DNA from: a virus | Length of the DNA stretch: 51,331 bases | Virus record (IMG/VR): IMGVR_UViG_3300032294_001446 | Span: 1 to 51,331 of that record | Reading direction: 5' to 3' (one strand) | The notes under the pieces: generated by a model | Seen by the model: the letters and a program-made list of their open reading frames with translations, nothing else | Databases searched by the model: none | What the model was told of the DNA's origin: nothing | Made by a program: the position numbers and the translations under genes | Shown: piece by piece, positions 10,761-51,227 of the stretch | Layout: each line of letters starts with the position of its first letter | How positions within the stretch are numbered: position 1 is the first letter of the stretch

Positions 10761-12695
10761 TTACCTACTAATTTCTTCCCAGTCCATAGATGCATAAACA
10801 CTCTCACTACTAGATATTGGAGAAGCAGCAACAACAAGCGTGAGTTCAAAAGGTGTAGAAGTCAAACTATTTCTTTCCAACTGAAACTTGAAGAGTGCTT
10901 CTTTGAGAATATCAATTGATGGAGAACCTTGATTTGATGAGTTTATAAATCCACTTGCAAGTATTCTTCCTCCAGCAAAAGAAGTGCCAGTGATGTTATA
11001 ATCAACAGCACTATCAGCACCAGCACTCACCCAACTTCCACCTGTTGTAGTTCCAGATGCTCTTACCTGCCAATTATAGTTAATTCCATTACTAACTCCC
11101 ATAATAGAAAGTGCAGTCATAATGATAATCGCATCCAAAGCAGTAGTTTTTAATCTTAAACTAATTATGGGATAAAAAGTTCCAGCAACAGAAAGAGTTC
11201 TTGGTGCTGTGATTGGTGTTCCTATTGCCTGTTGTAATCCACGAAGTTCATAACCACCTTCTGAAATTACAGTAGAACAAACTTGTTTGAGTGTACTTGC
11301 ACTAGTTGTAATTCCAGTATTTGCAATCTCATATCTCAAAGGCAATGATGCTGTTGTGATATAAGTTGAAGTGATATAATTTGCGTGATGGAATGAATGG
11401 CAGTGAATAAATTTCCCATCAACTACAAAACCCAATCTAACTGTTCCAAGTCCCAACCATTCAATATCCATCCACAAAATTTGTGCTTTGGAAATATCTA
11501 ATGTGACACCAGATGGATTGAGATGCCCTGCACCAAGCATCGTATCAACATTCCAATCCGACTGTGCTACTCTTGTTATTGTTCCAGTAGATAAACTTCT
11601 TTCCGCAAAATATAAAGTGCTTCCATCAAGTTCCAGATACATTCCATTATCTGCACCAAAGTATCCTACTCTTTGACGGAGATTTGTTTTTGGTGGGTCC
11701 ATTACAAATGTATTCAATACCTGTAATGATTTTCCTGGTTGATATGAGAATACTTTTGTGGTTTCTCTAATCACAGAACATCCAGCAGTAGTTCCGACAC
11801 TAATATTAACCAAACCTTGTGCTGTTACAAATCCAACTGTTGAACCAGTACCAACAACTAAACCACTCCAAAGATTATTATCTCTATATCTGTGAGAACT
11901 ATCAAAAAGTGTAAGTGGTGTTGAAGTTCTTAAACGACCAAATGCATCAGTTGCTATTGGGGGAAATGTAACAGATGCTGATGATGTTGTAGAAATTGAT
12001 ACTGTTCCTGTGACTGGTAGTGGATTACTGGAACTTACGGGAGCACTATTGAGATTGAGTGATACTTGCCCTGTTGTTCCAATTCCCACTGTTCCTTGAA
12101 CTGTGACTGTTGAACCAATACCTGATACTGCGACTGTTGTGACTGGATTGGTTACATAAAAACTTGTATTTGAGATTGATACTGTATTAGCAATAGAAAC
12201 AGTTCCACCTACGGTTACAGAAGTAACGGGATTTAGAATATAAAAACTTGTATTTGCAATTGATACTGAACCACCAATTCCAGTTACATAGAATGAAGTA
12301 TTGGAAATTGAAACCGATGAACCAAAACCAGAAATATAAAAACTTGTATTAGATATTGCTACGGTATTCAGTAATGAAGAAATGCCAACTGGGAGATATG
12401 TAAGATTTAGATTTACTGTCCCAACACCAACTGGAAGATATGGAACAGTTAAAATGCTACTTATCCCAACTTCTGTGATGTGATTATGAACTGGATTTTC
12501 TGGAGAACTTGCAACATTCACAGTTGCTCCAATACTCACATCACCATTAATTGTAATATTTGAACTTCCAAGAGATACTGGAAATGGATTTTCAAAAGAA
12601 ACTGGACTGCCATCTTTTGTGGCAATCATAGGTACTTCAAAAAGGGTCCTTTCTTGGTTTAGAAAGTCCTGTGTATTCTTATTCCACTGTGCCAT
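10761..12695 (-). CDS. Virion structural protein with SxSNTSFY repeats, 644 aa
   Basis: Residues 1-70 resemble a virion-attachment N-terminus (NPFPVSLGSSNITINGDVSI). Residues about 112-185 contain four copies of NTSFY (near 116, 132, 148 and 176), mostly at 16-residue spacing and joined by SVSI and VTNPV strands, suggesting a beta-solenoid shaft. From about residue 250 comes DAFGRLRTSTPLTLFDSSHR, which I associate with large structural proteins of cyanophages and algal viruses, followed by a jelly-roll-like beta-rich C-terminus. Probably a fibre, tail or head-surface protein. Inserted between gp16 and gp17. Confidence 0.8.
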   Translation of the reverse strand: MAQWNKNTQDFLNQERTLFEVPMIATKDGSPVSFENPFPVSLGSSNITINGDVSIGATVNVASSPENPVHNHITEVGISSILTVPYLPVGVGTVNLNLTYLPVGISSLLNTVAISNTSFYISGFGSSVSISNTSFYVTGIGGSVSIANTSFYILNPVTSVTVGGTVSIANTVSISNTSFYVTNPVTTVAVSGIGSTVTVQGTVGIGTTGQVSLNLNSAPVSSSNPLPVTGTVSISTTSSASVTFPPIATDAFGRLRTSTPLTLFDSSHRYRDNNLWSGLVVGTGSTVGFVTAQGLVNISVGTTAGCSVIRETTKVFSYQPGKSLQVLNTFVMDPPKTNLRQRVGYFGADNGMYLELDGSTLYFAERSLSTGTITRVAQSDWNVDTMLGAGHLNPSGVTLDISKAQILWMDIEWLGLGTVRLGFVVDGKFIHCHSFHHANYITSTYITTASLPLRYEIANTGITTSASTLKQVCSTVISEGGYELRGLQQAIGTPITAPRTLSVAGTFYPIISLRLKTTALDAIIIMTALSIMGVSNGINYNWQVRASGTTTGGSWVSAGADSAVDYNITGTSFAGGRILASGFINSSNQGSPSIDILKEALFKFQLERNSLTSTPFELTLVVAASPISSSESVYASMDWEEISR

Positions 12696-12698
12696 TAA

Positions 12699-13007
12699 TC
12701 ATTCACCCCACGATAATTTTTCTGGTTGATACCTTTGTGCGTTTTTGATTCTTGAAGTATTTACCTGAGAAGGATAAACGTTATGAACAATTGCACCGGG
12801 ATATTCTCCTTGAATTTGTTCTGCCAATTCATTTTTAGGGAGCATTTTGCCTTCTACTTCTAAACGATACATCTTTCCTTCCCAAACTACATCAGCAAAG
12901 AAAGACTCGCTTGCTTCTTCTGGTTGGGAAGAACCTACGTTTAGAGTTCCGTTAAAGTCACCATTGATGGTGATACTTTCTGAAATAAATTGTTGAAAAG
13001 ATTTCAT
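12699..13007 (-). CDS. Predicted capsid-targeted internal protein, 102 aa
   Basis: The N-terminus MKSFQQFISE|S has the length and pattern of the T4 internal-protein targeting peptide (MKTYQEFIAE|A), with I-S-E at residues 8-10 as a gp21 site. After it comes ITINGDFNGTLNV, similar to the ITINGDVSIGATVNV stretch in the neighbouring 644-aa protein, and then a compact alpha/beta segment (FFADVVWEGKMYRLEVEGKM...). No enzyme family recognised. Sits between the 585-aa basic modular protein and the 644-aa structural protein, spaced by one to three bases. Confidence 0.8.
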   Translation of the reverse strand: MKSFQQFISESITINGDFNGTLNVGSSQPEEASESFFADVVWEGKMYRLEVEGKMLPKNELAEQIQGEYPGAIVHNVYPSQVNTSRIKNAQRYQPEKLSWGE

Positions 13008-20854: not shown

Positions 20855-23800
20855 TTAAGCAAGAGCAATACATCTAAAATCTTTAAGTTTTATAGGAGTT
20901 GATTCATTCGTTGATGACATTACAATTTTAATTGAAAATCCATTAAATTGATCTAGATTATTTGCAGTAAATTGATACTCTGAATAAGATAATGCATCAT
21001 TAGGTGATACAAAAGCATCTGCCCTTCCACTATTGTTATTCAAATTAATAACACGATCACCAAATCCATCACCATCAGTATCAATTAAATTATCATATCC
21101 AGGAAATGGTATATAACTTTGTGGAATGTCGCTAGAATCTGCTTTGAATAATCTGTAAAAGACTCTAAAATCTGCACTTTCCTGTCTATTTGCTGCAACA
21201 AGAACTCTCAAACTAGTTGCTGGTTGAGCAAGAGAAATTAACTGAGTCACAAATACAGATCCATGAGGATCGTTATTAATTTGATTAGATCTAGAATCGT
21301 CAACATAATTAGAAATTGGATTATTAGATCTATTTCTACCAAGAATAAAAGTAGAATTTTGAATATCCATTACTGGTGATAGATTTTCATCCTCAGTTTT
21401 GAAGTCAACTTTTAAAGTTAAAGACTTATTTGATGGTAATGTCGTCAATCTTGTAGTTTCATTAACTCTAGATGCGACTATTCTTGGTGTTGGATAATGA
21501 ACTACAGTATTCAAAGGAATGGGATCATATCCTTGATCCAGGAATGAGACTTCTGATCCACCAGCACTTGTTCCAGAAACAGTTCTAAGTTGTGCCGATG
21601 CTGATGTCCCTTTACCTGGAGTAATTATGTTAAACATTGGTTGAATAGAACTAAATTGGTGATTCTGAGAAACACTGACAGTATCTCCACCAAATCCTTT
21701 CTGAGATGCAAAATTAATCATTGAACTACCACTGGATCTATTTGTTGGACTAGATCTATCAAATTCTAAGAAATAATTATCTAAATTAGAATTTTCTAAT
21801 GTATAATATGATGAAGGTATATCATGAGTTTTATTGATTCTCATCAATGAAACACCATTTACTTCATATGGTTGTATAAATTCATCTGCACCATGTGCAG
21901 TTTTAACTGTATTGTTCAAAGATCTTCCATCAATTGAAAGAGTTCCTGCGTTGCCAGAAACTCTGGTTATATTACTATAAGATACAACCTCATTCTGTAT
22001 CAATGCATATCCACGACTTGTTGTTATTCCTTCAAATGTTGAGAATATTGTTGTATTTGCGACGGATACCACAGTATCATTTAAACCAAATGATGCGGTA
22101 AGTGTTGTTTTTTCTCTATCTGGAGAAACATTATTAACTTCAATTTTATTATTTCCTCCATGATGTGCATGGTTATACTGCTTGATTCTAAAAACATTTC
22201 CGGAGTATTCATTCGAAATAAGAGTTGACGAAGATACAGTTGCAGTGGCAGTAGTTCTTGATGATTCTGAATTGGGATTTGTATAATAAACAATAGTTGT
22301 ACTATTCGTAAAGTTTTCACCTTGAACATTAGTAAGATAAATTGAATCCGATGCTCCGCGTGTTCTAACTCCAATTCTAGCCCCACTACCGCCACCAACG
22401 CTCGTTGAGGTAATTCCTAGTATTTCACCAGTTACATATCCATTTCCTGTAGAAGTAATATTAACACCAGAAACGATAGAACCGGAGATAGTGATTGTTG
22501 CTTGAGCACCCGATCCCTTTCCACTAATTGAATATAATGGAACTGATGTGTATGTTCCATTTGAATACCCAGCTCCAACAGCAACAATACCAACAGAACC
22601 GGTTCCTGTTGCGGAAATTGGTCCACCAAGATTTTCAACAATACCAGTAATACTTGGGCTTGACCCCTCACCAATCTTAGTGCCAGGAACAACAGCAGTG
22701 TTTAAAGTTCCCGAAATTGACAATCTCAATTTCCTCGGCAAACCTTCAATTGGATTATTTACAAGGGTCTGAACATTTGTTCCACCGGGTGTAAGATCTG
22801 TATTATAAAATGTTAGAGTTCCTGATGGGACAAATTTAGCTTTATAAAGTTTAAATGTAAGATCTTGATATTGGCTAGCAGTCCAAATAGTTCCATTTTG
22901 AGATTTGAACAAACTACCACCAATATATTGTTTAGTAACGATTACATTTTGAGAATCTGGGAGATTTTGGGTCTTAACAGTTTTCTTACCCATTGTGGCA
23001 GTCCACATTTCATAAGCATCAGATGCTGGCGAAAGAATTACAATTGCATATTCTCTACCTGCTTCCAAGAATACAGGAGATGGGAAACGAATTCTAGTTG
23101 GAATTGGTTCTGGAATAGTTGGTTTGGCATATACACCCCAACTAGTGTCCATCAAAATTTCTTTCATTTTTGATCCAATGACGCCGGTATATACATTTTC
23201 TAAGAAATATCTAATATCAGCATCTGAGAATCCTTGCGATTTAGCATATGGGTAATCAACTTCATATCCAAATTGACCTGGCGTAGAACCACTTGCTGCA
23301 TCATCAAATCCAGCCATGCTCTTAACACCAAATGTTGTCTCAGCAATGTTTATTTGATCGGGATTTAATGCAACTTGTGTATAATCTTGTACAAGGAATG
23401 AAGTTGGAGTTCCAAGTTCAACCGTTCTAAGTTCTACATAAATCTTTGCTTGAGGATCTTTTGTTGCAAAATACAAATCAAACGATGTTAAGAAAACACC
23501 TTTACCATCAACGGTAAATGATTGTGCAAGAGGATCTCTATGAACTGCTTTTGTTTGGACTTGAACATCTGTTGGTTTAGTTGCTGGTGGGGGTGGATTT
23601 CTAACAGAAACTCTACTTGTCTCTTGCGTCAGAATAGTTCCAGATCCACTATATGTTCCTAGTGCTTCACTAGCAAATACCGTAGATCCTGGTAAAGGTG
23701 TAATTCCTGGTGGTACAGCAGTAACTTTTACAGTTTTTGTTCCGCTTCTGACTTTGGATAGTGGTGGTGGATTTGAATTTGGATCTCTAAAGAAGAAGTT

Positions 23801-26800
23801 TCCAATAACATCACCCCAGTTATCTGTTACTAATTCTGCTCTTGTAATTCTTGCAACAGCCCCACTAGTTTCACCAACAATAGTCGCACCATTTGTTACA
23901 TATCCATAATATTTTTCTTCATTGGCAAGAGCTCTAACTCCAATATTAATTAATTTTGATGTTGCGGAATAAGAATCTCCTGGGGCAGGTCTTGTTTTAT
24001 CATATGGATCTACACTATAAGTTTCAACAAGTACATCAGGTGCTCCTAACCCAGATCCAATATCTGGTCTGGAAGTATCGCCAAATTTATGATTTGGTTT
24101 TTGAATTCTAATGTATCCAATTTGCCTATTGCCAACAAATGAATAAACGCGAGCGTTTTCAAAAACTTGGAACGTTCCAGATTGCATTTGAATTTCACAA
24201 AGTTTTGGAATAATATCAACTTGTTGACTATCCAGATAATGATAATGTTTTGTGAATGGTCTTAATCCATTTGCTGCAAAATATACGTTTCTTGAACGCA
24301 TAAATGGATCAACATCTCCACTAATTTTCACATCTTCCACATAATTAAATTCCCTAGAAGGACCAGTTAATTTTGGTGTGTATTGAGTAGTTGTGGTAGT
24401 TGTTGTTGTAACTAAAGAACCTTTTTTAATAATTCTAGTTCCTTCAGCATTTGGGTGAGGACCATTAAATTCTGTTACATTTGTATTGACAAAAGTATTT
24501 GCCTCTTGTACCCAATTTGCTCCCGTAGATTCGGTTCTATGTTCATCTATGTAAATTGTTCTAACCCAGTTATCAGATGCTGGATCTAATACTACTCCTC
24601 CAACAAAAACAATAACGTTAAAAGGATTAACATTTTCAACATTAGTAGCATGTGGTTGATCAATCCAATCAACTTCTGTGTATGCTAATGTTAACAAATC
24701 ACCAGTTTTTTGGATATTTGGATCTAATAATTTTAAATTTTGCGTTATATCGGTTTTTGAGCGATCGATACCAGGATCTAATGCCAATTCTGCAGGAATT
24801 GACCAAAAATCAACAGGAGTAATTCCGGTTGGGTCGGATTTACTAATGTCAATAGTGGTATATCTCATGTCAGCAAGAGATTTGTCCCTGAAACTAGTAA
24901 CGACAAATCCAGATTTAAATCTATTGAGACCATTTGCATCAACAACTTCAAGAGTTTGTGCTTTAAGTTCAAGCATACTCAAACTTGTAATATCTTCTAA
25001 ATTCTCAATCCTCTGCTCAAGTTTTCCAATATCTCTCATAGTAAATCTTCTATTATCTCTCAATAAGATTTTTGGATCCTTTTGAGGATTGTAAAGATAT
25101 GCTGGATAACTAATTTGAGCCAACTCCATTGCATCATCTGCAAGAAATGGGGCACGTGGAGTGTCGCTAGATTCACCTTGAACGATTTCAACTTCACCAA
25201 GACGGTTAACTGTTACTAAATCAACTCTTGGTAAATAGTAACTATATCCAATAAATGAAGTTTCATCTGGAGAAATTGTATATCTAAAAGTGCTTTCATA
25301 AGATCTTGAATTAAATGCAAATGGTGATGCATTTGTTGTTGAAGGATCAAATTCTTGAACTCTTGGTCTAAAATCAAGAACATCGGTTGCACGAATTTGA
25401 TCAGGAATTATGGGAATATCATTCAAATATCTATCCTGAGTATACGAATTTACAGTAAATAAATCTCCACTATTTCCTGATGCTACTTTATAGTAATCAA
25501 AGATAATTAATAATTGGCGAGATGGGATAGAACTTCCCACTTTTCTTCTTATTCTAGAATAATCACAATATTGAGTTTTATGTGATTTATCTAAAGTATA
25601 ATCATTAGTTTTATTAATATAACTACCAGGAGTTATTTGTTGTATTACGGCATTAATAGATGATTCTTTGAATACAACAGTTTCTCCAACTTCAAATTTA
25701 TTTTCATTTAAAGGTACAAATTCTATTGTTGCTGCTGTCTTATTAACTATTTGTGCAGATGCTCTACTAGTTTGTCCTACTAATTGTTCACCAGTAATTG
25801 CATTAGCATCTAATGCCAATCCCGTAGCAAAAGTTAATTTATCTAAAACAGGAGTTGATGTATCTGTGGATTCATATATTGCACGAACATTAACAACATC
25901 AGGAACATTTAAAGATATTTCATTGTCTTCTACTCTAAGACCATAATACTTACTTGTAGTAAGACCAGTAGCAGATGACCCAGTTTGTGTAGAAATTCCA
26001 CTAGTCCTTGTAACTGATAGTTGTCTACTTCTTATAAATTCTTTTGATTTATTTGTAATCTGCCTTTTCTTCAGTGTAACAATGGCAGTTATATTTGACT
26101 GATTTATTCTTAGTCCTGTAAAAGTAACCGAATTTCCATTAGATCCAAGTGTAAATTTTCCTGAATTTAATTCATCTGTAGTTCCATCACTGTAGTGAAT
26201 TGAATATCTTTCGGCATCAAAAGATTCAAAAAATGCACTAGTGATTCCAGATGCGGAATCTAAAGCATCAGATGTTGTGATTATTAAAGAACCAAATGCA
26301 TTTGTTGATCTGCCAGTAATTTGTTTTGTAATTGTAAGTTCAGATTGTGATAAATCAACAGATGCAATATTTTCTTTTGGAAGAATTGTATATAATCCCG
26401 ATGAATCAAGATTTGTTATCTTTGGTTCCATCAAGGAAAATACTGAATCTGTTGTAGCTGCTGGCAATCCATTATCACAAACGGATGTAATTGCATATCC
26501 AACGGCAGCAAGAGTTAATGATGTACCATCTGCAGAAATTGCTGATATTCTATTGAAAGTTGGATCTGTATTACCACTTTCTTGATATTTTATTATCGAT
26601 TCAGTTTTAATTCCAGTTACACCAGAGAAAAATCTTCCAGGTGCTTTTGCTGTTCCTCCAGTAGTGATATTTAATTTATCTGTAATAGAAAAATTAGGTG
26701 GAGTTCTTTCATATAAAACTGCATCTGCAAAAAAGTCTGTTTGCAAAGCACTATTCAGTGCAGTCGAATCTTGATAGACTGATTTTATATCTTCCGTTGT

Positions 26801-44391: not shown

Positions 44392-44793
44392 TTATCTTGT
44401 TGCCTCTAGTAAGAATGAAAATTGTTGTGTTGGGAAATCTTGCCCAATTATATCAAATATAATAGTCACTTCGAATTCATTATTATCTGGTCTTGGTTCA
44501 ACTTCAACTTGAACATTATCAACTCTATTCTCAAAATTATTAATTGTTGTTTTAATTTGATCTTCAATTACCGAAGCAGATCCGTAATCGACAAATTCAA
44601 ATAAACTTCTACGAACATCAGTTCCCAACAGTGAATTAAAAAATCTTTCTGTTGGGATTGTTTCTACTAAATTGCGGACAGATCTAGAAATCGCCCTCTC
44701 ATTAATCAAGACAGGAAGATCTTTTGTCACCGGATGTGGTTCAAAAGAAAAACTAATATCCTTAAAAGATCTGGATATTCGTGTGACTGCCAT
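44392..44793 (-). CDS. gp25: Baseplate wedge protein gp25
   Basis: 133 residues, equal to T4 gp25 (132). Contains RSVRNLVETIPTERFFNSLL and GTDVRRSLFE, the gp25 core signature with the EPR-like motif (VEVEPRPDN). It initiates sheath assembly. First gene of the gp25-gp6-gp7 late unit, preceded by a TATAAATA element. Confidence 0.97.
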   Translation of the reverse strand: MAVTRISRSFKDISFSFEPHPVTKDLPVLINERAISRSVRNLVETIPTERFFNSLLGTDVRRSLFEFVDYGSASVIEDQIKTTINNFENRVDNVQVEVEPRPDNNEFEVTIIFDIIGQDFPTQQFSFLLEATR

Positions 44794-47805: not shown

Positions 47806-47976
47806 TCAGTCGCGGTCGCTGATGTTCCACCGACCCCATCCGCCGTTGGCGTGGGCGTCGCGGGTTTCGATCGCCTGCATCCGCTGCGTCAGAGTGTACT
47901 TACCCCAGAGAGTGAGGTCGGTGCTCTGATAGCAGTCTTCCCAGATGCGGTTGGCGGTTTCGAGGGTCATGGTCAT
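47806..47976 (-). CDS. Small array gene 1, 56 aa, hypothetical
   Basis: Start set at ATG 47974-47976, directly behind the conserved leader (CACCCGAACCGACC), rather than the longer open frame that runs through the promoter. A second ATG follows two codons later. Sequence MTMTLETANRIWEDCYQSTD then LTLWGKYTLTQRMQAIETRD. Not recognised. Last gene of the GC-rich array before the AT-rich part. Confidence 0.68.
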   Translation of the reverse strand: MTMTLETANRIWEDCYQSTDLTLWGKYTLTQRMQAIETRDAHANGGWGRWNISDRD

Positions 47977-48052
47977 GGTCGGTTCGGGTGTTGAACTGAG
48001 ATCAGTATAGCAGGTCGGGGGCAGGTTGACGCCCACCCCCACGAACAGGTCA
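47974..48052 (-). promoter_or_regulatory. Array unit R1: hairpin + extended -10 + leader
   Basis: Runs from the TGA of the 64-aa gene to the ATG of the 56-aa gene. Hairpin 48017-48040 with 9-bp stem (two G.U pairs) and loop CGTCAA, the reverse complement of the loop in R2-R7. The -10 is TGCTATACT (hexamer 48009-48004), the best in the family. Confidence 0.78.
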
Positions 48053-48244
48053 GTCAAAGCACGGTGCTTTGACGGTGTGAGCACAAGACTCAGAATACTG
48101 TCCAGCGATGATGGCAGTAGGCACGCCCCAGTGAACGTATTGAGAAGGGCGACCGTCAGCATTCTTAGCATTATCAGCGGCAGAGATCCACACGGTCTGG
48201 CGGTCAGCGATGCGGGTTGCCTGAGAGAGGGGGAAGCGGGTCAT
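48050..48244 (-). CDS. Small array gene 2, 64 aa, hypothetical
   Basis: ATG at 48242-48244 behind the conserved leader. Sequence TRFPLSQATRIADRQTVWIS...YVHWGVPTAIIAGQYSESCA ending KAPCFD. Soluble, not recognised; the internal part resembles a short beta-sheet domain. Its last codons contain a 21-base palindrome (48053-48073). Stop codon belongs to the R1 unit. Confidence 0.7.
   Translation of the reverse strand: MTRFPLSQATRIADRQTVWISAADNAKNADGRPSQYVHWGVPTAIIAGQYSESCAHTVKAPCFD
48053..48073. repeat. 21-base perfect palindrome at the end of array gene 2
   Basis: GTCAAAGCAC, one central base, then GTGCTTTGAC: ten-base perfect arms. It sits inside the last codons, adjoining the R1 hairpin. Could be an operator, a recombination site or an RNA hairpin before the stop codon. 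Confidence 0.6.
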
Positions 48245-48316
48245 GGTCGGTTCGGGTGTGAACTGGAATCAGTGTAGCAGGTCGGGGGCAGGCGTCAACC
48301 TGCCCCGTAGGGTTCA
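48242..48316 (-). promoter_or_regulatory. Array unit R2: hairpin + extended -10 + leader
   Basis: 75 bases from TGA to ATG. Hairpin 48285-48306: GGGGCAGG stem, loop TTGACG, then CCTGCCCC. The loop hexamer is spaced 16 bases from TACACT (48276-48271, in TGCTACACT context). Leader CAGTTCACACCCGAACC precedes the ATG. Confidence 0.85.
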
Positions 48317-48580
48317 GATCCTCTCCAGATCACCGTGCTGCAGAGCACGGTGGAGCAGGCGGCCCCAGGAGGTTGCCTCCCGTGCCTCAGGATCCTGCAG
48401 CAGGTCAGTCCAGCGAGCAGCAGCGCCGTCATCCTCAAAGGCGAAACGGTATTCGGTGCTGCTGCTGCTGTAGGTTACCAGCAGGTCGAATGTGCCCTGC
48501 AGGTCACCTGGCACGATCGCCAGATGGGAGATGGCGCTGCTGTTCACAGAAGCGGCGGCGATGGCGGTTGCGGTAGTCAT
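48314..48580 (-). CDS. Small array gene 3, KTSC-like domain, 88 aa
   Basis: ATG at 48578-48580 behind the leader. Residues about 12-85 follow the KTSC pattern: VNSSAISHLAIVPGD, then LLVTYSSSSTEYRFAFEDDG, then an aromatic RWTDLL helix and the terminal TSWGRLLHRALQHGDLERI (compare the S.G..FN..IR ending of KTSC domains). KTSC domains occur in many small phage proteins and are of unsettled function. The call is moderate because the lysine of the KTSC motif is not visible. Confidence 0.65.
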   Translation of the reverse strand: MTTATAIAAASVNSSAISHLAIVPGDLQGTFDLLVTYSSSSTEYRFAFEDDGAAARWTDLLQDPEAREATSWGRLLHRALQHGDLERI

Positions 48581-48652
48581 GGTCGGTTCGGGTGTGAACT
48601 GGAATCAGTGTAGCAGGTCGGGGGCAGGCGTCAACCTGCCCCGTAGGGTTCA
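48578..48652 (-). promoter_or_regulatory. Array unit R3: hairpin + extended -10 + leader
   Basis: 75 bases from TGA to ATG and the same sequence as R2. Hairpin 48621-48642 with TTGACG loop; TACACT at 48612-48607. Confidence 0.85.
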
Positions 48653-48862
48653 GGGTGTGGGATCGTATCCGTCGATGATCTCATTAACCGCAGCAGTCGG
48701 GGTCATACCCTCTAGGAAGCGATCCAACAGAGCATCCAGCGCCCATCCGTGGTCAGCGGACCCCATGATCCGCTCAACGTAGTCATCCTCACAGATCATG
48801 CCGTAGGCAGCATCCCAGAAGGTGCAAAAGTCTTGGGAGTCGAAGCAGTTGTCGGTGGTCAT
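48650..48862 (-). CDS. Small array gene 4, acidic, 70 aa
   Basis: ATG at 48860-48862 behind the leader. Sequence MTTDNCFDSQDFCTFWDAAY, ICEDDYVERIMGSADHGWAL then a helix ending GMTPTAAVNEIIDGYDPTP. Strongly acidic, helical, not recognised. An acidic small early protein is compatible with a host-takeover or DNA-mimic role, but nothing proves it. Confidence 0.7.
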   Translation of the reverse strand: MTTDNCFDSQDFCTFWDAAYGMICEDDYVERIMGSADHGWALDALLDRFLEGMTPTAAVNEIIDGYDPTP

Positions 48863-48934
48863 GGTCGGTTCAGGTGTGAACTGGAATCAGTGTAGCAGGT
48901 CGGGGGCAGGCGTCAACCTGCCCCGTAGGGGTCA
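48860..48934 (-). promoter_or_regulatory. Array unit R4: hairpin + extended -10 + leader
   Basis: 75 bases. Hairpin 48903-48924 with TTGACG loop; TACACT at 48894-48889. The leader has one change (CACCTGAACC instead of CACCCGAACC). Confidence 0.85.
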
Positions 48935-49123
48935 GTATCCCAACCAGGTCAACAGTTCGCCCGCGTCGACCCCATAGATTCCCCAATGGTCAGCGGTGCC
49001 GTACTCCTGCAGGAACTCATTGATGCTGCCGTGGAGGTCGGCAGCATACAGGGCGTCGTCATAGGTGACGCATCCGTTGTCATCGGCAATGGTCAACAGT
49101 TGATCGGCGAAGGTCTCAGGCAT
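48932..49123 (-). CDS. Small array gene 5, acidic, 63 aa
   Basis: ATG at 49121-49123; the leader has one extra base before it. Sequence MPETFADQLLTIADDNGCVT, YDDALYAADLHGSINEFLQE, ending GVDAGELLTWLGY. Acidic and helical like array gene 4 but not clearly homologous. Not recognised. Confidence 0.7.
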   Translation of the reverse strand: MPETFADQLLTIADDNGCVTYDDALYAADLHGSINEFLQEYGTADHWGIYGVDAGELLTWLGY

Positions 49124-49196
49124 CGGTCGGTTCGGGTGTGAACTGGAATCAGTGTAGCAGGTCGGGGGCAGGCGTCAACCTGCCCCGTAGGGTTCA
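49121..49196 (-). promoter_or_regulatory. Array unit R5: hairpin + extended -10 + leader
   Basis: 76 bases. Hairpin 49165-49186 with TTGACG loop; TACACT at 49156-49151. The leader ends CCGAACCGACCG before the ATG. Confidence 0.85.
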
Positions 49197-49400
49197 GATC
49201 TGCTCTGTCATCTGCTGGCGGATCATGGTGCGGATGGTGAAAGCGCTGTCGCGGATGCGGCGGCAGGAGTCGGGGATCATGTCGTTCTCACCGTTGCGAG
49301 CAGCAGTCTCCAGTTCACCCCAGCGGATGCCTGCGTCGATCAGGGCGTGGCAGATCTCATCAGCGATGGCAGGGGTCACGGTCAGGGTCAGGGTGGTCAT
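49194..49400 (-). CDS. Small array gene 6, helical, 68 aa
   Basis: ATG at 49398-49400 behind a slightly shortened leader. Sequence TLTLTVTPAIADEICHALID then AGIRWGELETAARNGENDMI and an Arg-rich helix RRIRDSAFTIRTMIRQQMTE. Not recognised; looks like a small helical bundle. Confidence 0.7.
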   Translation of the reverse strand: MTTLTLTVTPAIADEICHALIDAGIRWGELETAARNGENDMIPDSCRRIRDSAFTIRTMIRQQMTEQI

Positions 49401-49470
49401 CGGGTTCGGGTGTGAACTGGAATCAGTGTAGCAGGTCGGGGGCAGGCGTCAACCTGCCCCGTAGGGGTCA
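49398..49470 (-). promoter_or_regulatory. Array unit R6: hairpin + extended -10 + leader
   Basis: 73 bases. Hairpin 49439-49460 with TTGACG loop; TACACT at 49430-49425. The leader is intact to CCCGAACC, then diverges. Confidence 0.85.
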
Positions 49471-49620
49471 GCAAAAGTGCCCCTTCAGAGCAGTCTGAAC
49501 CTCCGCCCAGTCTTTGCAGCGGATGGGAGGATGAACGTCGCTCCAGATGACAAATCCGCTGCGCTTACGGTGGGTGCCCACTTCAGTGATCTGAACCGAG
49601 TGCTTGAGGGTGGTTGCCAT
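49468..49620 (-). CDS. Small array gene 7, 50 aa
   Basis: ATG at 49618-49620 and TGA at 49468-49470, both placed by the flanking repeats. Sequence MATTLKHSVQITEVGTHRKR then SGFVIWSDVHPPIRCKDWAE and the ending VQTALKGHFC. Beta-strand rich, basic; not recognised. A longer open frame in another phase overlaps it and is rejected. Confidence 0.68.
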   Translation of the reverse strand: MATTLKHSVQITEVGTHRKRSGFVIWSDVHPPIRCKDWAEVQTALKGHFC

Positions 49621-49689
49621 GGGGTGGGGGTGTGAACTGGAATCAGTGTAGCAGGTCGGGGGCAGGCGTCAACCTGCCCCGTAGGGTCA
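49618..49689 (-). promoter_or_regulatory. Array unit R7: hairpin + extended -10 + leader
   Basis: 72 bases. Hairpin 49659-49680 with TTGACG loop; TACACT at 49650-49645. The leader is conserved only through CAGTTCACACC; the rest is C-rich and different. Confidence 0.85.
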
Positions 49690-49911
49690 AACGGCAACCC
49701 AGTAAGATTTGCCGTCGCGTTCCTGTTGCTCCGCCATGATAAAGGCACCGCTGCTGGAGCATCCGCGCCAACCCTGGACCTGGTAGTAACAGTCCTCCAG
49801 GGTGTCAGCATAGGCAACGGTGCTGGCGATCTTACCGCCCCTCACGAACGCCACCGCGAACGGATAGCGGGTGGGGGAGAGGATCGTCTGCAGGGGGGTG
49901 GGATCGGTCAT
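49687..49911 (-). CDS. Small array gene 8, 74 aa
   Basis: ATG at 49909-49911 behind the leader. Sequence MTDPTPLQTILSPTRYPFAV, AFVRGGKIASTVAYADTLED, CYYQVQGWRGCSSSGAFIMA, ending KSYWVAV. A compact beta-alpha-beta protein; not recognised. Three Cys are present without a CxxC pair. Confidence 0.7.
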   Translation of the reverse strand: MTDPTPLQTILSPTRYPFAVAFVRGGKIASTVAYADTLEDCYYQVQGWRGCSSSGAFIMAEQQERDGKSYWVAV

Positions 49912-49952
49912 GGTCGGTTCGGGGTGTGAACTGATAAAACTATAGCAGATCA
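49909..49952 (-). promoter_or_regulatory. Array unit R8: -10 and leader without hairpin
   Basis: Only 44 bases from TGA to ATG. TGCTATAGT gives the extended -10 (hexamer 49944-49939), followed by CAGTTCACACC and CGAACCGACC. No hairpin and no TTGACG at the usual place; the -35 region would fall in the upstream gene. Confidence 0.7.
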
Positions 49953-50138
49953 GCGAACGTCCTGAAGGGCGGTTGCCTTGGTGCTCTGATGAACCGATCG
50001 GGAACCAGCACCAGTCCGAACGCGAGAGGAACCACCCTTAATCCGTGATGCCCAACGATTGGCGCTAGCACCATGGGCAACGGGCAGGCGGGTGACCTTG
50101 AATTGGATGCCGTCAACGGTGATAGAAGTCTGGGTCAT
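49950..50138 (-). CDS. Small array gene 9, basic, 62 aa
   Basis: Start set at ATG 50136-50138 behind the leader; the longer open frame crosses the promoter. Sequence MTQTSITVDGIQFKVTRLPV, AHGASANRWASRIKGGSSRV, RTGAGSRSVHQSTKATALQD. Highly basic Ser/Arg/Gly-rich second half, probably nucleic-acid binding or disordered. Not recognised. Confidence 0.68.
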   Translation of the reverse strand: MTQTSITVDGIQFKVTRLPVAHGASANRWASRIKGGSSRVRTGAGSRSVHQSTKATALQDVR

Positions 50139-50214
50139 GGTCGGTTCGGGTGTTGAACTGAGATCACTGTAGGGGCAAAAGGGAAGGGTCTCCCCCTCCG
50201 TTGTGACACTGTCA
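50136..50214 (-). promoter_or_regulatory. Array unit R9: different terminator + -10 + leader
   Basis: -10-like TACAGT at 50171-50166, then CAGTTCAACACCCGAACC to the ATG. Upstream is an unrelated stem-loop at 50182-50199 (GGAGGGG, GAGA loop, CCCTTCC, then CTTTTG), a better intrinsic terminator than the R2-R7 hairpin. Confidence 0.72.
50182..50199 (-). terminator. GAGA-loop terminator in unit R9
   Basis: 7-bp stem with one G.U pair, GNRA-type GAGA loop and four T shortly after, 13 bases past the stop codon at 50212. It ends the 49-aa gene transcript. Confidence 0.6.
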
Positions 50215-50361
50215 GAACTGGACCTGATCAGCAGTCGGGGCGCTGATCTCAGTATAATGCTCGGCAGCATTCTCCTGATCGGCGATAGAGTCGAGAATGC
50301 TCAACAGTTCGGCACCATTGTCACCGCGACGGAGAAGAGAAATGGCGAAATCAGCAGACAT
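50212..50361 (-). CDS. Small conserved-looking protein, 49 aa
   Basis: ATG at 50359-50361, TGA at 50212-50214. Sequence MSADFAISLLRRGDNGAELL then SILDSIADQENAAEHYTEIS. The S..F.I.LLR.G..G..LL.ILD.I pattern recurs in short cyanobacterial and cyanophage proteins, function unknown. Unlike its neighbours it lacks the CAGTTCACACC leader and has a 53-base leader behind a perfect TATAAT. Confidence 0.72.
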   Translation of the reverse strand: MSADFAISLLRRGDNGAELLSILDSIADQENAAEHYTEISAPTADQVQF

Positions 50362-50414
50362 TGTAGAAAAAACTAAAAGGTTTGGTAGAAGTCTTTAAGG
50401 GCGCTCCCGTTTCC

Positions 50415-50420
50415 ATTATA
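50415..50420 (-). promoter_or_regulatory. TATAAT -10 element for the 49-aa gene
   Basis: A perfect -10 hexamer (minus strand, 50420-50415) just after the stop codon of the repeat-protein gene. No good -35 is seen 16-18 bases upstream, so activation or a degenerate -35 would be needed. Confidence 0.45.
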
Positions 50421-50425
50421 TTAGA

Positions 50426-50656
50426 TTAGGCAGCAATCGGTTCAGGAATCAGGCGCAAAATGTCATCCTCCCAACGATAAAAGTTCAGAATTTCGTTCTC
50501 GTCATGAATGTTAATCTCGTCACGAATCTCGTCATGAATGTTAATCTCGTCACGAATCTCGTCATGAATGTTAATCTCGTCACGAATCTCGTCACGAATC
50601 TCGTCACGAATCTCGTCACGAATGTTAATCTCGTCACGAATCTCGAATGCCTTCAT
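50426..50656 (-). CDS. EIRD/EINIHD tandem-repeat protein, 76 aa
   Basis: ATG at 50654-50656 behind a leader with CAGTTCACACC. Residues about 5-53 consist of EIRD units (4 aa) and EINIHD units (6 aa), giving a 10-aa super-period repeated three times, encoded by near-identical DNA. A unique C-terminus follows (NEILNFYRWEDDILRLIPEP). Alternating acidic, hydrophobic and basic residues suggest a charged helix or solenoid. Not recognised. Repeat number is expected to vary among relatives. Confidence 0.7.
   Translation of the reverse strand: MKAFEIRDEINIRDEIRDEIRDEIRDEINIHDEIRDEINIHDEIRDEINIHDENEILNFYRWEDDILRLIPEPIAA
50501..50614 (-). repeat. 30-bp and 12-bp in-frame tandem repeats
   Basis: Three 30-bp units (50501-50530, 50531-50560, 50561-50590), the first two identical and the third differing only slightly, followed by 12-bp units GTCACGAATCTC (plus strand) at 50591-50602 and 50603-50614, then more degenerate copies. 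All lengths are multiples of three and keep the frame. Confidence 0.88.
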
Positions 50657-50697
50657 GATTTGTTCGTGGTGTGAACTGAAGTCAGTATAGAGGGTCA
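50654..50697 (-). promoter_or_regulatory. Array unit R10: -10 and leader without hairpin
   Basis: 44 bases from TGA to ATG. TATACT at 50689-50684, then GACTTCAGTTCACACCACGA before the start codon region. No hairpin, no TTGACG. Confidence 0.7.
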
Positions 50698-50832
50698 GAC
50701 AGTCAGGGTGGTGGAGGGTTGCGCCACTGGTTCAGGTGTCACAAGGTAGTGAGTGATCCAGGCGGCAGAGACCCCTGATACCATCATCGCCAGCAGGGTG
50801 GCAATGATCTGGTGCATGGTAGTGTCGCTCAT
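50695..50832 (-). CDS. Small single-span membrane protein, 45 aa
   Basis: Start chosen at ATG 50830-50832, which overlaps the preceding stop codon (ATGA); an upstream reading would run through the previous gene. One membrane segment, IIATLLAMMVSGVSAAWI, near the N-terminus, then a Pro/Thr-rich tail TPEPVAQPSTTLTV. Coupled to another small membrane protein. A lysis or membrane-modifying role is possible but not shown. Confidence 0.68.
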   Translation of the reverse strand: MSDTTMHQIIATLLAMMVSGVSAAWITHYLVTPEPVAQPSTTLTV

Positions 50833-50996
50833 TGTGAGATCAGGTCGGCGGCAGTGTAAAGGGCACCTGCTGTCACGGTGCGGACGGGGCGGATCGGTTC
50901 CCAGAGCAACCACAACAGCAGCGCAGCAACGGTCAAGCGGAGCATGGTAGCGCGGTGGAACTCAGGGGAACGGGAGCGGGTCAGAAAGCGCATCAT
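50829..50996 (-). CDS. Small membrane protein with basic N-terminus, 55 aa
   Basis: Start ATG ATG at 50996 overlaps the preceding stop codon (ATGA). MMRFLTRSRSPEFHRAT is basic, followed by the hydrophobic segment MLRLTVAALLLWLLW, then a soluble tail RPVRTVTAGALYTAADLISQ. An internal ATG at 50943-50945 would give a 38-aa form starting at the membrane segment. Inside-positive topology predicted. Not recognised. Confidence 0.62.
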   Translation of the reverse strand: MMRFLTRSRSPEFHRATMLRLTVAALLLWLLWEPIRPVRTVTAGALYTAADLISQ

Positions 50997-51154
50997 CGCT
51001 CAAGTTGTGCCAGGGAAGACGGAGCGATGTGAGAAGGAGAACCGCAGGAGAGATAGAAGTCTACCATGCGGTCTGCCTCTTCTTTAGTTGTGAACCACTG
51101 GGAGCGCCACTCACAGGAGTTGTAAGGGGTCTGATAGCGAACTTCGAAGCGCAT
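50993..51154 (-). CDS. Small soluble protein, 53 aa
   Basis: Start at ATG 51152-51154 behind the CAGTTCACACC leader; the longer open frame crosses the promoter. Sequence MRFEVRYQTPYNSCEWRSQW then FTTKEEADRMVDFYLSCGSP. A short beta-hairpin plus helix resembling small phage proteins with a W.T.EEA pattern; no family assigned. First of three genes joined by ATGA overlaps. Confidence 0.7.
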   Translation of the reverse strand: MRFEVRYQTPYNSCEWRSQWFTTKEEADRMVDFYLSCGSPSHIAPSSLAQLER

Positions 51155-51227
51155 GGTGTTCAGGTGTGAACTGAGAGAATTGTAGTCGGTCAGAGGGGGC
51201 AGGATGCCCCCCGCTTGTGCCAGTTTA
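51152..51227 (-). promoter_or_regulatory. Array unit R11: different hairpin + -10 + leader
   Basis: From the TAA of the edge gene to the ATG at 51154. Hairpin 51195-51211 (7-bp GGGGGCA / TGCCCCC, 3-base loop) then TACAAT (51184-51179) and CTCAGTTCACACCTGAAC. The loop does not contain TTGACG. Confidence 0.7.

Follow-up and report, generated by a model that had tools for sequence, protein, structure and literature searches.

The window analysed here is a viral fragment of 51,331 bases from IMG/VR (IMGVR_UViG_3300032294_001446). On its minus strand, from 51,226 down to 47,806, it contains an array of small genes separated by 11 related intergenic units, or joints, each with a predicted promoter and a short leader in front of the next ATG. 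The genes downstream of the array encode the baseplate wedge proteins gp25 and gp6 (profiles phrog_261 and phrog_219); the closest relatives of the window gp6 are from P-SSM2/P-SSM5 (69%) and the freshwater Synechococcus phage S-SRM01 (63%). By its gp25 and gp6 sequences the phage is a T4-like cyanophage of the Kyanoviridae type, and the cyanophage assignment made in an earlier, sequence-only reading of this DNA is borne out, the gp6 relatives being cyanomyoviruses. The array is also distinguished by its guanine-plus-cytosine (GC) content, which is 52–60% at 48–51 kb and 28–41% in nearly all other 1-kb bins; the exceptions are the bin where the array ends (44%) and one bin at 1–2 kb (50%). Rfam and tRNA searches of the window returned no match. 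As argued below, the array is probably a hypervariable island of single-gene cassettes, with a fixed place a few kb upstream of gene 25. Its parts, with protein lengths in amino acids (aa) and our family numbers (F), are as follows.

51155–51226, minus: unit at the upstream array end; box CTGGCACA, GC hairpin GGGGGCA-TCC-TGCCCCC, −10 TACAAT (51179–51184), leader CAGTTCACACC
50993–51154, minus: cassette gene, 53 aa, F7
50829–50996 and 50695–50832, minus: two small open reading frames (ORFs) without units, after the F7 gene
50657–50694, minus: short hairpin-less unit; −10 TATACT (50684–50689), leader CAGTTCACACC
50426–50656, minus: cassette gene, 76 aa, F8, with in-frame tandem repeats
50139–50211, minus: unit; box GTGTCACAA, imperfect hairpin GGAGGGGGAGACCCTTCC, −10 TACAGT (50166–50171), leader CAGTTCAACACC
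49950–50138, minus: cassette gene, 62 aa, F10
49912–49949, minus: short hairpin-less unit; −10 TATAGT (49939–49944), leader CAGTTCACACC
49687–49911, minus: cassette gene, 74 aa, F19
49621–49686, minus: unit R7; hairpin GGGGCAGG(TTGACG)CCTGCCCC with the −35 in the loop, −10 TACACT, leader
49468–49620, minus: cassette gene, 50 aa, F119; missing between F19 and F2 in the related locus L110
49401–49467, minus: unit R6
49194–49400, minus: cassette gene, 68 aa, F120; missing between F19 and F2 in L110
49124–49193, minus: unit R5
48932–49123, minus: cassette gene, 63 aa, F2; L110 copy 97% identical in nucleotides
48863–48931, minus: unit R4
48650–48862, minus: cassette gene, 70 aa, F53; copy in the related locus L125 99% identical in nucleotides, with other neighbours
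48581–48649, minus: unit R3
48314–48580, minus: cassette gene, 88 aa, F66; weak match to phrog_4357
48245–48313, minus: unit R2
48050–48244, minus: cassette gene, 64 aa, F1; recurs near the gp25-proximal end of arrays, including that of phage S-PM2
47977–48049, minus: unit R1; variant hairpin TGGGGGTGGG-CGTCAA-CCTGCCCCCG, −10 TATACT (48004–48009), leader CAGTTCAACACC
47806–47976, minus: last cassette gene, 56 aa, F32
44392–44793, minus: baseplate wedge gene 25 (profile match), the conserved neighbour that fixes the locus

At all 11 junctions a TAnnnT element is followed, after exactly 5 bases, by CAGTTCA(A)CACC, and the ATG lies 19–22 bases after the C. All 11 leaders proposed in the sequence-only reading were thus located, all on the minus strand; its view that the leader is fixed just before the ATG was wrong, as the constant spacing is that to the −10. 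R2–R7 share one order: stop codon, CCCTAC, the hairpin GGGGCAGG-TTGACG-CCTGCCCC, CGACCTGC, TACACT, GATTC and the leader CAGTTCACACC. Excluding the stop codon, their stop-to-ATG blocks are 66–70 nucleotides (nt) in length, not 72–76 as first given, and that of R1 is 73. The hairpins earlier assigned to R1–R7 are present, but they are not the only ones, since the units at 51155–51226 (a different GC hairpin) and 50139–50211 (an imperfect one) also carry them; two of the 11 units, both short joints of 38 bases, lack a stem-loop.

These similarities depart clearly from chance. Allowing at most one mismatch, CAGTTCACACC matches the window at 10 places, compared to an expectation of 0.71, and none of the shuffles gave as many; nine are unit leaders and the tenth (49311, plus strand) is not part of a unit, and the two units with CAGTTCAACACC escape this pattern. 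The hairpin 27-mer GGGGCAGGTTGACGCCTGCCCCCGACC occurs in six exact copies, all on one strand, and not at all in the reversed control. A sigma-70 scan of the region gave 8 sites against 1.1 expected, and at six of six R2–R7 units it found TTGACG-16-TACACT with a TG extended −10; the −35 (TTGACG) sits in the hairpin loop, 16 bases from the extended −10. As proposed earlier, the R2–R7 units are near-identical (90–100%) and the genes between them align at 46–63%, the level of unrelated sequence.

Comparison with related loci places whole-cassette differences at these joints. The gene order is F19-F119-F120-F2-F53-F66-F1-F32 in the window and F19-F2-F2-F1-F32 in L110; L125 has F19 and, further on, F53-F66. 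Where L110 has F19-unit-F2, the window has F19-unit-F119-unit-F120-unit-F2. In the base-level alignment of the two, the F19 homology crosses the hairpin and −10 and stops in the leader, and the F2 homology starts at the hairpin; the two thus differ by exact cassettes, and each switch falls within a joint. Orthologous genes are 95–99% identical and their joints 87–93%. R2–R7 share TTGACG/TACACT, and all four L110 joints with the hairpin core have TTGACC/TATACT. Such window-specific joint bases, despite 95–99% identity of the genes, are what one would expect from homogenisation of the joints within each genome.

The same exchange is visible on a larger scale. Sorted by protein, the genes that follow 792 units make up 121 families, with a median cassette gene of 65 aa, and the 225 distinct directly adjacent gene pairs represent 159 family pairs. 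Eleven different families come after F0 (DUF7249) in its 17 pairs; F14 has seven successors in nine pairs and F2 eight in 20. From comparative sequence, then, whole cassettes are shown to be exchanged, gained or lost at joints. This agrees with the shuffling at units that had been proposed: relatives that have genes in common connect them by related joints, not by unrelated intergenic sequence, and what sets these phages apart is entire cassettes.

The relatives were collected by pattern scans of IMG/VR and phage records, which gave 363 viral loci (3.25 Mb). In these loci TAnnnT-N5-CAGTTCA[AC] yields 547 distinct units, compared to 5 for the reversed motif, and 522 of the 547 are followed by the ATG of an ORF with 35 aa or more. 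Seven TAnnnT-N5-CAGTTCA units, each with an ORF after it, lie at 22.07–24.6 kb of the isolate S-PM2; S-SRM01 has two, and S-RSM4, S-WAM2 and S-RIM32 have diverged ones. In all nine records having gp25, the units are upstream of it on the same strand. They lie at 22.07–24.6 kb in S-PM2 (gp25 at 26.9 kb), 89.3–90.3 kb in S-SRM01 (95.9 kb), 69.5–76.9 kb in record G003 (79.4 kb) and 38.9–37.3 kb on the minus strand of G005 (34.1 kb), with similar placement in G008, G009, G010, G011 and G012.

The unit appears to be phage-specific. In 194 cyanobacterial genomes the motif shows no enrichment (17 matches, 11 in the control), and family PF23907 is rare there; a host origin of the promoter was rejected on these grounds. 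Blastn of the array against phages found nothing at 1e-5. With a loose E-value, a 66-base unit query led to S-PM2 and gave no match to T4-type coliphages or vibriophages, which is weak evidence with a query that short. In a unit scan of genome contigs, the matches listed were mostly chance-like.

Across loci, the leader is tied to the −10 rather than to the start codon. Among CAGTTCA-ATG sites at loci found without imposing a −10 (n = 146), a −10-like hexamer is exactly 5 nt away in 72 and at other spacings in 5, and the distance from leader to ATG varies, mostly from 16 to 25. The fixed −10 spacing together with the variable ATG distance ties the leader to the transcription start, and the predicted +1 of the transcript is the A of CAGTTC, 7 nt past the −10. 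The sequence TTGAC is most frequent at positions −24 to −22 relative to the −10. After CAGTTC the leaders are 83% A or C, and a Shine-Dalgarno-like GGAG or GAGG occurs in just 1.5% of them. We rejected a 5′-terminal mini-hairpin (GUUC...GAAC) as a leader feature: GAAC occurs in 27%, compared to 6.6% after shuffling, yet most leaders, among them those of S-PM2, lack it. In L136, L125 and L155, and three times in L135, the same hairpin core is combined with a different repeated leader, TACCATTAGCAAGCAACCGCAACCGATCCGATG.

The hairpin is found in one of two joint classes. Joint lengths are bimodal, with about 35–55 or 3–23 bases from stop to −10. A strong hairpin is present in 79% of the 111 nonredundant long joints, compared to 6% after shuffling, and in none of the 54 nonredundant short ones. 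It starts mostly 7–13 bases past the stop and ends mostly 8–12 before the −10. Covariation was tested by arm swapping, since a MAFFT alignment of the joints misplaced the arms: in chimeras of the 5′ half of one joint and the 3′ half of another, the hairpin score falls from 19.5 to 13.4 (p = 1.7e-18). Co-varying arm pairs include GGGGCAGG/CCTGCCCC, GGGGCACC/GGTGCCCC and GGGAGCAGG/CCTGCTCCC; these compensatory changes indicate that the hairpin structure is under selection. Between stop and hairpin, 44 of the 111 long joints have a box, (C/G)TGKCMCA, usually at 2 or 5 nt from the stop; the box is found in 1.4% of shuffled sequences and in none of the 54 short joints. We know of no terminator type to which this box belongs. 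In the window it is found at about 51212–51221 and 50200–50208.

Taken together, these observations are best explained, with good but not full confidence, by a fixed-locus island of cassettes that carry promoter-hairpin joints and are shuffled by recombination. The joint would be a compact composite of stop codon, GC hairpin, −10, AGUUCA transcript start, short A/C-rich leader and ATG. Unmodified host sigma-70 RNA polymerase may read each joint as an early promoter; cyanomyoviruses lack homologues of alt, modA, modB, motA and asi (PMC2984593), which is consistent with this. The hairpin may end or insulate the upstream message, or protect its 3′ end. Phage recombination could use the near-identical joints as short homologies, and would thereby both shuffle the cassettes and homogenise the joints within a genome. 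The likely benefit is a fast turnover of early host-interaction and counter-defence genes.

Several points weigh against this explanation. Recombination between joints is deduced from patterns, and the loci were collected by motif, so that the counts show the unit to be real and gene-linked rather than how prevalent it is. The CAGTTC leader is not universal, other phages having other leaders. With the hairpin core as bait, CAGTTC was present in only 16 of 40 joints; the others repeat CAAGCAACCGCAACCG, CAGAGCAAACCGCAC or ACACGTTCACACC as leader, so that core and leader combine separately and leader classes differ between phages. Short, hairpin-less joints make up 54 of the 166 nonredundant direct junctions; with about one third lacking it, the hairpin must be optional. 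Some array genes have no unit: the statement in the sequence-only reading that every gene is a self-contained cassette fails for several genes (50695–50996 and 50212–50361). Finally, a U-tract is absent, only 2% of the hairpins being followed by 6 nt with 4 or more T, and a scan of the window found no terminator-like sites at the units.

The missing U-tract bears mainly on the role of the hairpin. Termination is plausible from the position of the hairpin but unproven, and the hairpin could instead be a structure that protects or processes the RNA 3′ end, or a DNA element, with overlapping or polycistronic messages. The (C/G)TGKCMCA box could suit a processing site. On the other side, termination or insulation would suit a hairpin that follows the stop directly and has the next promoter close behind it, and the missing U-tract is not decisive given how little is known of cyanobacterial terminators. 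We regard a non-terminator hairpin as quite possible, while leaning somewhat against it. A different question is whether the joints drive recombination. They could be alike purely through selection for one strong expression signal, with turnover by illegitimate recombination and the joints being simply where insertions survive. The conservation of hairpin and −10 across phages with unrelated flanking genes would fit this, as would the exchanged genes that are parted by short hairpin-less joints. It accounts poorly for the concerted pattern, in which window units share bases absent from all L110 units although the flanking genes are 95–99% identical, and for homology that switches within a shared unit of about 60 nt; the 27 identical bases, which include the spacer, also exceed what selection for expression alone would need. 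We consider it rather unlikely.

The repeats could also have arisen by recent tandem duplication of a gene plus its joint, after which the genes diverged; two F2-family genes do stand in tandem in L110. The genes of R2–R7 are as different as unrelated sequences (46–63%), with joints at 90–100%, and fall in different families, which contradicts duplication for these units and makes it very improbable overall. Scarcely credible is a reading of the repeats as mobile elements of the miniature inverted-repeat transposable element type or as an assembly artefact. Near-identical short inverted repeats do recur within one contig, but in the joints analysed the unit runs from stop to ATG in the same orientation, and matching arrays are present at the same locus in independent metagenomes and in the finished isolates S-PM2 and S-SRM01; both variants were rejected on this placement and these independent occurrences. 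This leaves recombination-shuffled cassettes as the reading that we prefer.

Composite joints of this kind have a known counterpart in the promoter-early stem-loops (PeSLs) of T4-type phages, which are described in two papers as stem-loop/promoter joints that mediate shuffling (PMC4503421, PMC3950731). Like PeSLs, the window units combine a stem-loop and a predicted early-type promoter, and they separate small, presumably early genes within a variable part of a T4-like genome; the copies are near-identical, and cassettes are gained, lost and exchanged at them. By sequence, the window has a T4-like genome with small variable genes, a stem-loop and predicted sigma-70 promoter in one intergenic unit, and gene insertion, deletion and exchange breakpoints at the units (window against L110 and L125; adjacency counts). 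The PeSL likeness noticed in the sequence-only reading, a composite joint with cassette shuffling, is thus upheld by comparative sequence. The primary studies of PeSLs are reportedly those of Arbiol in 2010 and Comeau in 2014.

There are also differences. T4 PeSLs are probably different in sequence from the window unit, and unlike PeSLs, R2–R7 in the window have the −35 inside the hairpin loop and the units lack a U-tract; the cyanophage units have an AGTTCA start 5 nt after the −10 and occupy a single fixed locus upstream of gene 25. The closest counterpart is the array of S-PM2 (Nodensvirus) at 22.07–24.8 kb, which likewise has its seven TAnnnT-N5-CAGTTCA units upstream of gene 25. Its first unit has the hairpin GGGAGCAGG-TTGACG-CCTGCTCCC, and its families F37, F20, F13, F0, F18, F12 and F1 recur in other arrays, F1 being common to the window; unlike the window, it has CAGTTCAAACGA or CAGTTCAACCGA as leader instead of CAGTTCACACC. 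In the part of the S-PM2 literature available to us, the S-PM2 ORFanage was judged to be without the high PeSL density of other T4-likes, and this array is not mentioned (PMC4503421). Stem-loop/promoter-type shuffling joints were also proposed for the haloarchaeal myovirus HGTV-1 (PMC3950731); compared by description only, its motifs differ from the window in having an archaeal TATA-box-type promoter. We suggest that the window array consists of PeSL-like cassettes in a cyanophage variant, with a conserved transcript-start sequence and a fixed locus, that is unreported in that part of the S-PM2 literature.

The window cassette genes gave no informative match, and none has a known function. In relatives, F0 corresponds to DUF7249 and F17 to GP88, and F20, which is also present in the S-PM2 array, is an anti-restriction protein of the ArdA-like kind (phrog_36653, E 8e-56); Pfam, PHROGs and PADLOC searches of 65 cassette representatives otherwise gave mostly unknown families. 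The proposal of a platform for host-takeover genes therefore finds support in one family of the relatives, F20, and none in the window genes, for which no function was identified. Because an ArdA-like cassette recurs, its orphan neighbours are good counter-defence candidates.

A further possibility, distinctly unlikely in our view, is that AGTTCA is a dedicated signal for the host polymerase, a phage factor or the RNA decay machinery, that it defines a distinct early-promoter class, and that the island is a general cyanophage anti-defence cassette platform. AGTTCA is constant, lies 5 nt past the −10 and shows no promoter-class enrichment in the 194 cyanobacterial genomes. If true, the island would play a part similar to that of integron-like gene capture, with phage homologous recombination as its driving force.

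Orphan small genes are numerous in cyanophages, and their gain and loss is treated as an open question in the literature (PMC4503421). Recognisable joints at a fixed island allow small genes to be found by their joint and missed annotation to be repaired, and let one read which cassettes swap against which hosts. PeSL-type shuffling is testable in the isolate S-PM2, for which public strand-specific RNA-seq of infection exists (E-MTAB-5840, cited in PMC5931967).

Some minor observations were also made. The tandem repeats of the window F8 gene (50483–50645, in frame) encode a repetitive RDEINIHDEI-like stretch, which is absent from the representative F8 homologue of another phage. The promoter-leader can also stand before a larger gene: in L411 (6481–7618) a unit precedes an F34-family gene of 370 aa. 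F34 is probably the source of an AAA_5/CbbQ-like match (porphyrin-biosynthesis type) among the 65 scanned representatives. In L202 (RGAJ01000223.1), a 3.9-kb contig assigned to a Rhodobacteraceae metagenome-assembled genome, three sites with hairpins resemble units; the contig looks like a cyanophage fragment binned with a bacterium.

In S-PM2 (AJ630128.1), cassette ORFs with units and homologues lie at 21803–22027, 22097–22264, 23503–23718, 23789–24058 and 24129–24299. The AJ630128/NC_006820 annotation misses or misplaces them, with other frames annotated elsewhere, and minus-strand annotations oppose two cassettes: 21656–21928 an F14-like ORF and 23768–23974 the DUF7249 gene (F0). The deletion-mutant record LN828717 adds one missed S-PM2 cassette ORF (12555–12722).

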